From: Thermomicrobiaceae bacterium
Lineage (GTDB): Bacteria; Chloroflexota; Chloroflexia; Thermomicrobiales; Thermomicrobiaceae
DNA length: 37,380 nt
Reading direction: 5' to 3'
Assembly: GCA_007133615.1 (NCBI GenBank)
Contig: SLMJ01000230.1
Location: forward strand, 1-37,380
Position 1 is the first letter of the stretch; each line of letters starts with the position of its first letter. Shown piece by piece: positions 9,987-12,918 of the stretch. The notes beneath the pieces are model-generated. The model had not been told where the DNA came from, made no database searches, and was given only the letters and a program-made list of their open reading frames with translations. The position numbers were made by a program, and so were the translations under genes.

Positions 9987-10053
9987 TTGACTCGATTCGG
10001 GAACTATGCTAGCATTTCTGAGCTCGACGGTGCGCCCGTCGGAGCGCTACAAT
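9987..10053 (+). promoter_or_regulatory. Two candidate promoters for the T-box/tRNA-Ala/leuS transcript
   Basis: Promoter A is TTGACT (9987-9992), 17 bp, TAGCAT (10010-10015), predicting a start near 10022. Promoter B is TCGACG (10024-10029), 18 bp, TACAAT (10048-10053), predicting a start near 10060, immediately before the first conserved T-box nucleotides. B fits the usual short distance between start site and Stem I. The 352-bp gap between the nfeD-like start (9878) and the tRNA (10231) therefore holds the promoters and the 5' half of the riboswitch; nothing protein-coding is supported there. Confidence 0.5.
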
Positions 10054-10230
10054 TATGAACTGGCGATGATCGGGAGTAGTACATCGCCGCGGCGAACAGC
10101 GAGTTGCCGGTTGGTGTGAGGCAACGATACGCACGCGGAGTGGAACTCGCCCGGGAGCTGTTCCGGTAAGTCTGATTCAGCCGGAACCGGTTGACCACCG
10201 TTAGATGGTTGCCGAGTGGGTAGATAGCTC

Positions 10231-10303
10231 GGGGCTGTAGCTCAGTTGGGAGAGCACAACACTGGCAGTGTTGGGGTCAGGGGTTCGAGTCCCCTCAGCT
10301 CCA
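10231..10303 (+). tRNA. tRNA-Ala (anticodon GGC)
   Basis: The 73-nt cloverleaf is complete: acceptor 10231-10237 with 10296-10302, D stem GCTC/GAGC, anticodon stem CAACA/TGTTG, loop CTGGCAG (anticodon GGC at 10264-10266, U33 and A37 in place), and T arm AGGGG-TTCGAGT-CCCCT. The acceptor stem contains the G3:U70 wobble pair, the major alanine identity determinant, and the discriminator is A73. CCA is not encoded (CTT follows). There are no mismatches, so it should be functional. Its location is unusual: it lies inside the leuS T-box leader, 22 bp before the T-box motif. No well-spaced private promoter is seen; TTGACC (10191) and TAGATA (10221) are 24 bp apart. Confidence 0.97.
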
Positions 10304-10345
10304 CTTCATGAACCATCTACCAACCAGGGTGGTACCGCGGAACTG

Positions 10346-10381
10346 GCCTTTCGTCCCTGTACAGGGATGAGGGGCTTTTTT
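10346..10381 (+). terminator. T-box intrinsic terminator / antiterminator switch
   Basis: GCCTTTCGTCCCTG (10346-10359) pairs across a 2-nt TA (in practice a larger loop) with CAGGGATGAGGGGC (10362-10375) as a continuous stem including G-U pairs, followed by six T. The segment GTCCCT (10353-10358) can instead pair with AGGG of the T-box motif (10326-10329) to form the antiterminator. The two structures are therefore mutually exclusive. For the embedded tRNA-Ala this is also the natural 3' terminator. Confidence 0.93.
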
Positions 10382-10437
10382 CGTTTTCCGGGACATTGTT
10401 TGGACGCATCTGTTTCAGTATCGACAGGAGGATCCCG

Positions 10438-12918
10438 GTGTCATCAACAGCTGAAGCTCGATCCAGAGCAAAACAGTACGACGCCAGCGCCATCGAACAG
10501 AAATGGCAACAGGCCTGGGAAGAGGCCCAGCTGTACCGGACGCCGGACGAGTCCGAGCGACCGAAGTGGTACGCGGTCACGATGTACCCCTACCCCTCCG
10601 GAGACCTGCACATCGGGCACTGGTACGCGATGGTGCCATCGGACGCAGCGGCCCGGTTCAAGCGGATGAACGGCTACAACGTGCTGTTTCCGATGGGGTT
10701 CGATGCGTTCGGCCTGCCTGCCGAGAACGCTGCCATCCAGCGCAACATCCATCCGCATTCCTGGACAATGGCGAATATCGAGAACATGCGCCGGCAGATG
10801 CGGTCGATGGGTACGATGTTCGACTGGGATCGGGAAGTCATCACCTGCCTGCCGGACTACTATAAGTGGAACCAGTGGCTGTTCCTGCAGTTCATGAAAC
10901 ACGATCTGGCGTATCAGGCAAAAGCGCCGGTCTGGTGGTGTCCGCAGTGTCAGACGGTTCTGGCAAACGAGCAGGTTATTGAGGGCGAATGTGAACGCTG
11001 CCACAGTGAAGTGAGCCGACGCGATCTGACGCAGTGGTTCTTTCGAATTACCAACTACGCCGAGGAGTTGCTGGATTTCACCACGATTGACTGGCCGGAT
11101 CGCGTGGTCACCATGCAGCGGAACTGGATTGGCCGTTCCGAAGGCGCCCGGGTGACCTTCCGCAGCGAGCAGGATGATCCGATCGAGGTCTTCACGACCC
11201 GACCCGATACGCTGTGGGGCGCGACCTTCATGGTGCTGGCGCCCGAGCATCCGTTGGTGGAGAAACTCACGACGGACTCTCAGCGTGAAGATGTCGAGAA
11301 TTACGTGGCCTGGGCTCGCCGGCAAACGGAGATCCAGCGAACGAGCACGGAGAACGACAAGACCGGCGTGTTCATCGGCGCCTATGCGGTCAACCCGGTG
11401 AACGACGAGCGGATCCCGATCTGGATCGCTGATTACGTTCTGATGGGCTACGGAACCGGCGCCATCATGGCCGTTCCTGCGCATGACCAGCGCGACTTCG
11501 AGTTCGCCAAACAGTTCGACCTGTCAATCCGGGTCGTCATCAAGCCTGAAGACGAAGATCTGGACGCAGAAATGATGACCGAGGCCTATCCAGACGAAGG
11601 CGTTATGGTCAACTCTGCGCATTTCGACGGTACGCCAACCGCAGACGGCGAGGCGGTCTCAAAGGTAATCGAATGGCTGGATGAGCAGGAACGTGGGCGT
11701 GGCGAGATCAACTACCGATTCCACGACTGGCTGGTCTCCCGGCAGCGATACTGGGGTACGCCGATTCCGATTGTCTACTGCGACGCCTGCGGAACAGTCC
11801 CCGTGCCAGAGGAAGACTTGCCGGTGCTGCTGCCCGAGGATGCGGAGTTCAAGCCAACTGGCGAATCTCCATTGAAGACGCACGAGAGCTTCTTCAATAC
11901 AACTTGCCCGAGCTGTGGCGCGGCTGCTACCCGCGAGACCGACACACTGGATACGTTCGTCGACTCCTCGTGGTATCAGTACCGCTACCTGAATCCGCAC
12001 TATGAGGACGGTCCCGTTGATCCCGAGAAGGCCGCCGAATGGCTGCCGGTCGATCAGTACACTGGCGGCATCGAGCACGCGACGATGCACCTGCTGTACA
12101 CACGGTTCTTCACCAAGGCGATGCGGGACATCGGGCTGTTGAACATCGACGAACCGTTCACCCGGCTCTACAACCAGGGCATCATTCTGGGTGAAGACAG
12201 CGAGAAGATGTCCAAGAGCCGCGGCAACGTCGTGGATCCGGACGAACTGGTGGATGAGCTGGGCGCCGATCTGGTGCGGCTCTACCTGATGTTCATTGCT
12301 CCGTGGGACCAGGGTGGTCCGTGGAATCCGCGTGGCATCGCTGGAATTGACCGATTCGTCCGCCGGGTCTGGTCCATTACAGACGAGACAGCTGATGCTG
12401 CCGGCGACGGTGACGTTGATGCTGACGTTGAACAGGACCTGAAGAAGAGCCTGCACAAGACCATCAAGGTGGTCGGTGATGACCTGGGCAGCTTCGAGTT
12501 CAACACCATGGTTGCCCGGCTGATGGAGTTTATCAACGATCTCTACCAGTTGCGTGAGCGTGGGGCGGTCGCTTCCCCGGTCTGGCGCGAGGCGCTTGAA
12601 TCACTGGCGCTGATGCTGGCGCCGAGCGCTCCGCATCTGGCGGAAGAGCTCTGGCACCGACTGGGGCGTGAATTCAGCATCCACCAGCAGGCCTGGCCAT
12701 CCTACGATGAAGCGCTGACGGTCGAGGATACGGTTGAACTGGCCGTGCAGATCAACGGCAAGGTTCGCGATCGGATCGAAACGGCTATCGACGCCGGCGA
12801 AGAGGCTGTTGTGCAGCAGGCGATGGCCAGTGAGCGTGTGCAGGAGTCGGTTGGAGACAAACAGATACGTAAGGTGATCTACGTCCCCGGCCGGATTCTG
12901 AACATCGTAGTAGGTTAG
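10438..12918 (+). CDS. leuS: Leucyl-tRNA synthetase
   Basis: LeuRS is a class I synthetase that charges tRNA-Leu. The protein has 826 residues from GTG 10438. That start is chosen because AGGAGG (10426-10431) is correctly spaced; the frame also opens at TTG 10396, which would fall just after the terminator. Motifs in order: YPYPSGDLHIGHWYAM (HIGH), a zinc-like CPQC...CERC element, the CP1 editing domain with TTRPDTLWGATFMVLAPEHP and YGTGAIMAVPAHDQRD, RQRYWGTPIPIVYC, FVDSSWYQYRYLNP, EKMSKSRGNVVDP (KMSKS), then the anticodon-binding and C-terminal domains ending QIRKVIYVPGRILNIVVG. It is controlled by the upstream T-box and is followed closely by uridine kinase and an aminotransferase. Confidence 0.98.
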   Translation: MSSTAEARSRAKQYDASAIEQKWQQAWEEAQLYRTPDESERPKWYAVTMYPYPSGDLHIGHWYAMVPSDAAARFKRMNGYNVLFPMGFDAFGLPAENAAIQRNIHPHSWTMANIENMRRQMRSMGTMFDWDREVITCLPDYYKWNQWLFLQFMKHDLAYQAKAPVWWCPQCQTVLANEQVIEGECERCHSEVSRRDLTQWFFRITNYAEELLDFTTIDWPDRVVTMQRNWIGRSEGARVTFRSEQDDPIEVFTTRPDTLWGATFMVLAPEHPLVEKLTTDSQREDVENYVAWARRQTEIQRTSTENDKTGVFIGAYAVNPVNDERIPIWIADYVLMGYGTGAIMAVPAHDQRDFEFAKQFDLSIRVVIKPEDEDLDAEMMTEAYPDEGVMVNSAHFDGTPTADGEAVSKVIEWLDEQERGRGEINYRFHDWLVSRQRYWGTPIPIVYCDACGTVPVPEEDLPVLLPEDAEFKPTGESPLKTHESFFNTTCPSCGAAATRETDTLDTFVDSSWYQYRYLNPHYEDGPVDPEKAAEWLPVDQYTGGIEHATMHLLYTRFFTKAMRDIGLLNIDEPFTRLYNQGIILGEDSEKMSKSRGNVVDPDELVDELGADLVRLYLMFIAPWDQGGPWNPRGIAGIDRFVRRVWSITDETADAAGDGDVDADVEQDLKKSLHKTIKVVGDDLGSFEFNTMVARLMEFINDLYQLRERGAVASPVWREALESLALMLAPSAPHLAEELWHRLGREFSIHQQAWPSYDEALTVEDTVELAVQINGKVRDRIETAIDAGEEAVVQQAMASERVQESVGDKQIRKVIYVPGRILNIVVG

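Follow-up and report, generated by a model that had tools for sequence, protein, structure and literature searches.

Transfer RNA genes are co-transcribed with protein genes in the thrU-tyrU-glyT-thrT-tufB and metY-nusA operons of Escherichia coli. In these operons the tRNA is processed from a transcript that continues into an mRNA, and it precedes the gene, outside any regulatory RNA element. The leuS T-box (RF00230) is built from Stem I with CUC, Stem II, IIA/B, RRRNG-Stem III-AA, a UGGU T-box and a terminator, with an aminoacyl-tRNA synthetase gene downstream. The available part of PMC7778990 gives the same order of RRRNG, Stem III and AA.

The locus described here shares all of these T-box features but differs from the known leuS T-box in one: the apical loop of its Stem III is a complete, non-cognate tRNA gene. 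Like the E. coli operons, it would yield a tRNA from a transcript running on into an mRNA; unlike them, it has the tRNA within the regulatory element. T-boxes read tRNAs, and this one would also make one. No report of a tRNA inside a T-box was found in the literature covered; the main T-box surveys of 2008-2009 lay outside that coverage, and an earlier mention is possible. The available parts of PMC2494555, PMC2965389, PMC7778990 and PMC4919913 make no mention of such an arrangement.

A probable leucine T-box leader with a tRNA-Ala(GGC) gene in Stem III

The window, i.e. the whole 37,380-nt stretch of DNA analysed, is contig SLMJ01000230.1 of a Thermomicrobiaceae bacterium (assembly GCA_007133615.1). 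The features of the locus, including both arms of a nine-base-pair helix proposed in a preliminary description, are as follows.

9987..10015, + strand, sigma-70-like promoter, TTGACT-17 nt-TAGCAT, 5' of the leader (consensus scan)
10057..10361, + strand, T-box leader with a large Stem III insert (cmscan, RF00230)
10146..10148, + strand, specifier codon CUC (Leu) in GGAA-CUC-GCC (Rfam alignment position)
10188..10200, + strand, Stem IIA (CGG/CCG), its loop holding the IIB 5' strand GACCA at 10193-10197 (sequence; covariation)
10202..10210, + strand, 5' arm of the nine-base-pair helix, TAGATGGTT, whose final TGGTT (10206-10210) also forms the 3' strand of the IIA/B pseudoknot
10214..10218, + strand, RRRNG motif GAGTG preceding Stem III (sequence)
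10219..10225, + strand, Stem III 5' arm GGTAGAT (Rfam alignment; covariation)
10231..10304, + strand, tRNA-Ala(GGC) with G3:U70 and no encoded CCA (ARAGORN; Rfam, 66.4 bits)
10311..10319, + strand, 3' arm of the nine-base-pair helix, AACCATCTA, overlapping the Stem III 3' arm (sequence)
10315..10321, + strand, Stem III 3' arm ATCTACC, followed by AA at 10322-10323 (Rfam alignment; covariation)
10326..10340, + strand, T-box motif AGGGTGGTACCGCGG with the UGGU bulge at 10330-10333 (sequence; Rfam)
10345..10376, + strand, intrinsic terminator of 14 pairs with a T tail (scan)
10438..12918, + strand, leuS with a GTG start and AGGAGG at 10426-10431 (ORF; homologous frames of relatives by tblastn)

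The RF00230 model matched over its full length (positions 1-219 of 219) and spanned the tRNA, with a cmscan score of 104.9 bits against a cut-off of 93. The promoter at 9987-10015 probably drives the leader. Another promoter-like site, TCGACG-18 nt-TACAAT, is present at 10024-10053, immediately 5' of the T-box start. The CUC specifier would read leucine, as suggested by its position in the alignment, by a tRNA-Leu(GAG) gene present in the window's genome and by the gene downstream. The reading frame 10438-12918 is probably leuS, judging by its sequence; homologous frames follow the T-box of relatives (tblastn).

We consider it highly probable that this element is the leucine T-box of leuS and that its canonical Stem III, not the nine-base-pair helix, carries an intact tRNA-Ala(GGC) at its tip. 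The T-box match, the identity of the tRNA, covariation of Stem III and IIA/B, conservation of the arrangement together with leuS and the single tRNA gene are all observed.

Stem III and the IIA/B pseudoknot covary in leaders with the tRNA

We assembled 103 loci in which a T-box encloses tRNA-Ala(GGC): 17 came from a scan of the window's order, 78 from a scan of a genome collection (at least 78 loci, from 120 stretches among the matches listed), and eight others have longer stems or deviate in the motif. For the loci of both scans (17 + 78) the tRNA was called by ARAGORN; in the eight added loci it was recognized by pattern, together with Rfam tRNA matches. That all 103 tRNAs are Ala(GGC) follows from the selection of the set, but the underlying search pattern was open to any tRNA. 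L086 and L131 have the acceptor signature but no ARAGORN call and were not counted; the L086 stretch starts within the tRNA. With a simple regular expression, GAACTC was found 5' of the tRNA in most of the 103 loci. Among 18 sampled relatives, eight reached the RF00230 gathering score with a full-length match, whereas ten missed the cut-off though the T-box motif was present. The leaders of 92 loci were aligned using MAFFT without structure, leaving out eight exact duplicates and L137, L157 and L186, which have too little upstream DNA.

In the Rfam T-box model, the paired arms of Stem III are GGUAGAU (10219-10225) and AUCUACC (10315-10321), the loop that they close holds the tRNA, and the RRRNG and AA flanks are both present (GAGTG-GGTAGAT...ATCTACC-AA). 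In 85 distinct arm pairs, positions 1-5 of Stem III were paired at frequencies of 0.87/0.92/0.89/0.89/0.86, compared with means of 0.80/0.66/0.63/0.50/0.60 after the 3' arms had been redealt and with highest values of 0.86/0.75/0.72/0.66/0.71 in 1000 shuffles; up to six pair types occurred per position. In free register, Stem III pairing was 5.90 versus 3.79 for shuffled arms (sd 0.09). A compensatory change was found even within the genus, the last pair of Stem III being T-A in the window and C-G in L047 and L048. The loop of IIA covaried with the strand after CCGTTA: the IIA/B strands (GACCA/TGGTT) gave a free-register value of 4.51 versus 3.74 shuffled (sd 0.09; 92 rows).

The preliminary description, which overlooked the Stem III overlapping its nine-base-pair helix, had proposed a Stem III-like helix that carries the tRNA at its tip within a retained T-box architecture. 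The architecture is indeed retained, as seen from the full-length RF00230 match and the covarying Stem III and IIA/B; the tRNA does lie at the tip of such a helix, but the clamp is the canonical Stem III and not the nine-base-pair helix.

In 20 of the 92 aligned rows, Stem III fails to form 4 bp upward from its base when the register is strict; several of these rows look like one-base register shifts. Besides, L069, L100 and L161 deviate in the register of Stem III and in the AA spacer (GAAC ahead of AGGG), and possibly represent a second lineage of the embedded element.

A second helix, adjoining the tRNA, was examined in those rows where the Stem III core has 4 bp or more and leaves 10 nt or more beyond it on each side (22 of 92 rows; the window is not one of them). 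Its pairing exceeded that of shuffles (5.32 versus 3.99, sd 0.19; highest of 500, 4.59). The sequence of this tRNA-proximal helix varies by genome, for example GCGACAG/CTGTCGC in L044 and CGGGTCGTCC/GGACGACCCG in L203.

The embedded tRNA has the features of a working tRNA

The cloverleaf, the GGC anticodon and G3:U70 are all present in the window's tRNA. G3:U70, the alanine identity pair, was found in 103 of 103 embedded tRNAs. The discriminator base is A in every row listed, and CCA is encoded in 70 loci and missing in 33, including the window. Position -1 holds U in 60 loci and C in 34 (94/103), and the unpaired spacers beside the tRNA have a median length of 6 nt on the 5' side and 10.5 nt on the 3' side. 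The preliminary description had suggested that its helix could guide access by RNase P and RNase Z. Such spacers, and U or C at -1, are compatible with normal tRNA processing. The available part of PMC9433436 describes a hindrance of RNase P when the 5' leader pairs with the 3' RCCA; being unpaired, the spacers here would avoid this hindrance.

In each of ten distant genomes, a pattern for tRNAs with the GGC anticodon hit a single place, with letters identical to those of the embedded gene; since the pattern fits just 79 of the 103 embedded genes, a divergent second Ala(GGC) gene could be missed. In the window's genome 42 tRNA-like places were found, and all were typed apart from a fragment at the end of a contig. 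The alanine tRNAs among them were of two kinds: Ala(GGC), represented solely by the embedded gene, and Ala(CGC). As the sole Ala(GGC) gene found in these 11 genomes (the ten distant ones and the window's), the embedded tRNA would be expected to be expressed.

Proposed mechanism

Judged from sequence features, the leader would be co-transcribed with its gene, function as a T-box and give a constitutive yield of processed tRNA. One promoter would produce a transcript with leader, tRNA and leuS. Uncharged tRNA-Leu would bind Stem I and the UGGU bulge and so decide on read-through into leuS. Because the embedded tRNA lies 5' of the terminator, tRNA-Ala should be made with leuS on or off, and it would be freed from terminated and read-through transcripts alike by ordinary tRNA processing. 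tRNA and riboswitch annotations may overlap in such a leader, with both being correct.

The predicted sites of tRNA excision separate the half of the switch that senses from the half that decides. Tentatively, and with considerable doubt, we propose that the riboswitch may operate in a split form: excision of tRNA-Ala from the nascent leader would separate the half that reads tRNA-Leu (Stem I, Stem II and IIA/B) from the half with the antiterminator, and the two would be held together only by the covarying Stem III, by the tRNA-proximal helix where present and by the bound tRNA-Leu. If so, excision would time or limit the decision on leuS, tying leuS induction to tRNA maturation. With the embedded tRNA, one can test directly if a T-box needs to be a single covalent strand and what purpose Stem III serves.

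Alternative structures and roles

The preliminary description had reported perfect 9-bp complements, TAGATGGTT (10202-10210) and AACCATCTA (10311-10319), flanking the tRNA-Ala(GGC) at 10231-10304, with the 3' arm ending 6 nt before AGGGTGGTACCGCGG (10326-10340). The complementarity and the spacing were confirmed. The 3' arm of this helix has ATCTA in common with the 3' arm of Stem III, so that only one of the two helices can form; likewise, TGGTT in its 5' arm can pair with GACCA (10193-10197) as IIA/B, so that the helix excludes the pseudoknot. The duplex energies are comparable: -10.3 kcal/mol for the 9 bp versus -7.8 kcal/mol for the 7-bp Stem III. Nearest-neighbour folding, which cannot represent the IIA/B pseudoknot and misfolds the tRNA in unconstrained runs, gave the nine-base-pair helix a probability of about 0.95 in the full T-box, with the tRNA forced or not, whereas in a fold of 10057-10326 with the tRNA forced and the 3' part of the T-box omitted, Stem III reached 0.98 and the nine-base-pair helix 0.01. 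Energy folding thus gives no decision between the two helices. The nine-base-pair helix is physically possible in these models and could be a competing fold in the window's species.

Such a competing conformer, specific to one species, could break Stem III and IIA/B and favour termination, as the mutually exclusive arms and comparable energies would allow. We regard this as unlikely. The complement is known from one species, and its site was chosen post hoc; when the same two flanks were dinucleotide-shuffled 3000 times, 0.7-0.8% of the shuffles contained a perfect complement of 9 bp or longer. In the window as a whole, inverted pairs of 9 bp with such a spacing showed no enrichment (20, versus 12-39 in 20 shuffled windows). 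Most likely, the nine-base-pair helix is a coincidental complement in the window's species.

It is very unlikely that the embedded tRNA stays unexcised and serves as a structural module of the riboswitch, a tRNA-shaped strut. Its position in Stem III is conserved across a large evolutionary distance, which favours a strut, but the invariant G3:U70, the CCA encoded in 70 of 103 loci and the pyrimidine at -1 in 94 of 103 speak for a functional tRNA. Moreover, no other tRNA-Ala(GGC) gene was found in the genomes checked, and in nine genomes the tRNA lies outside the T-box.

We give equally little credence to cross-sensing, in which tRNA-Ala abundance or processing would feed back on leuS, e.g. 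through an ACCA end meeting UGGU in cis. The discriminator A in all rows and the CCA in 70 of 103 would suit the UGGU bulge, and the same tRNA is found with the same synthetase throughout. On the other side, the encoded CCA is missing in 33 of 103 loci, the window included. An ACCA end is common to many tRNAs, and its fit to UGGU therefore carries little information.

Still less credible is the nine-base-pair helix as a real clamp, standing in for Stem III and offering the tRNA to antiterminator and processing enzymes. Its nine perfect pairs, its duplex, stronger than that of Stem III, and its probability of about 0.95 in the full T-box fold are in its favour, but it would destroy the conserved Stem III and the IIA/B pseudoknot, and Stem III prevailed once the tRNA was forced and the fold stopped short of the 3' part of the T-box. 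In 86 distinct rows of the 92 aligned leaders, scored in the same strict way as Stem III, the helix showed no covariation (0.443 paired versus 0.445 shuffled, with 581 of 1000 shuffles at least as high). Three congeners with both tRNA and T-box (L047, L048 and L050) keep two of its nine pairs, yet have seven or eight pairs of Stem III. The preliminary description had named a lack of compensatory changes in homologues retaining tRNA and T-box as its refutation; by this criterion, the absent covariation and the absence of the helix from these congeners refute it as a conserved element. In free register, pairing of this type was 3.84 versus 3.54 in a row-swap control (highest of 100 swaps, 3.78); the excess was smaller against shuffles of own composition (3.84 versus 3.74, sd 0.09), and with a 12-nt window the values were 3.70 versus 3.55 (sd 0.08; highest shuffle, 3.77).

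Distribution and linkage to leuS

An assembly chimera or a recent chance insertion of the tRNA, to which the fragmentation of the window's assembly (412 contigs) might point, is refuted and can practically be discarded, the arrangement being present in at least 78 of 120 stretches among the matches listed and, within the window's order, in no fewer than 30 of 61 genomes.

In that order, 22 of 61 genomes match the search pattern and the tRNA signature (17 by ARAGORN, five from the matched letters), and eight further genomes with longer stems or a variant motif have the embedded tRNA. In a phylum-wide draw, the pattern matched in 45 of 400 genomes, a few by chance; those of its matches that end in GGTACCACG (family f27, e.g. 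L212) combine the embedded tRNA signature with a variant T-box motif, GGTGGTACCACG. In the order that includes Syntrophomonas wolfei, a cultured carrier, 42 of 63 genomes match, 41 of them with the GCTCCACCA signature. The embedded loci span Chloroflexota, Bacillota, Armatimonadota and others. Carriers are labelled Desulfofundulus, Pelotomaculum, Symbiobacterium and Thermaerobacter, and also Armatimonadetes, Coprothermobacterota, Caldisericota and, for two bins, Actinomycetota; labels of bins can be wrong.

leuS was found downstream in 98 of the 103 loci, with up to about 2 kb intervening in some, and the remaining five have just 63 to 1139 nt of downstream sequence. Random landing of tRNAs was tried as an explanation and rejected: among the matches listed, a generic T-loop pattern gave only Ala(GGC) at leuS T-boxes, and no tRNA other than Ala(GGC) was seen at a T-box with leuS next to it. 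A tRNA-Gly (L054) and a tRNA-Asp (L175) precede a TGGTACCGCG, with no leuS, that was judged to be a chance match.

A LeuS tree was built from carriers only, with 76 rows from the 87 of 98 stretches with at least 330 residues, duplicates and near-copies being omitted. Most Bacillota formed a group with 98% SH-aLRT support, which included the two Actinomycetota bins; most Chloroflexota grouped with Armatimonadota (98%), and three Bacillota rows (L069, L100 and L161) stood apart on a long branch. This tree of carriers fits old vertical descent of the embedded element with some transfer. The arrangement is old or widely spread, with a constant pairing of tRNA and synthetase.

In nine genomes of the window's order (L191-L199; genera g4, g5 and g6 of the window's family), tRNA-Ala(GGC) lies 5' of the leuS T-box. 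In these sister genera, tRNA, T-box, gene and strand are the same as in the embedded loci, but the tRNA is upstream of the T-box and not within Stem III. The T-box is of normal length, and a gap of about 43 to 122 nt separates the tRNA from it; in L193, for example, the tRNA is at 532-603 and the T-box at 659-873. Embedding is therefore not obligatory. That the linkage to leuS is kept without it argues that sharing a transcript matters more than the exact position, and these genomes provide a natural comparison for the embedded arrangement.

Other tRNA genes were seen near T-boxes. In L108, L162, L163, L174, L180 and L211, the embedded tRNA-Ala(GGC) is preceded by a tRNA-Ala(CGC), located about 160 to 240 nt upstream on the same strand. 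In L008 (G000:C223, 1501-1893, minus strand), a tRNA-Val(GAC) with a terminator-like sequence lies about 65 nt 5' of another T-box and outside it; the frame downstream of this T-box reads like ThrRS.
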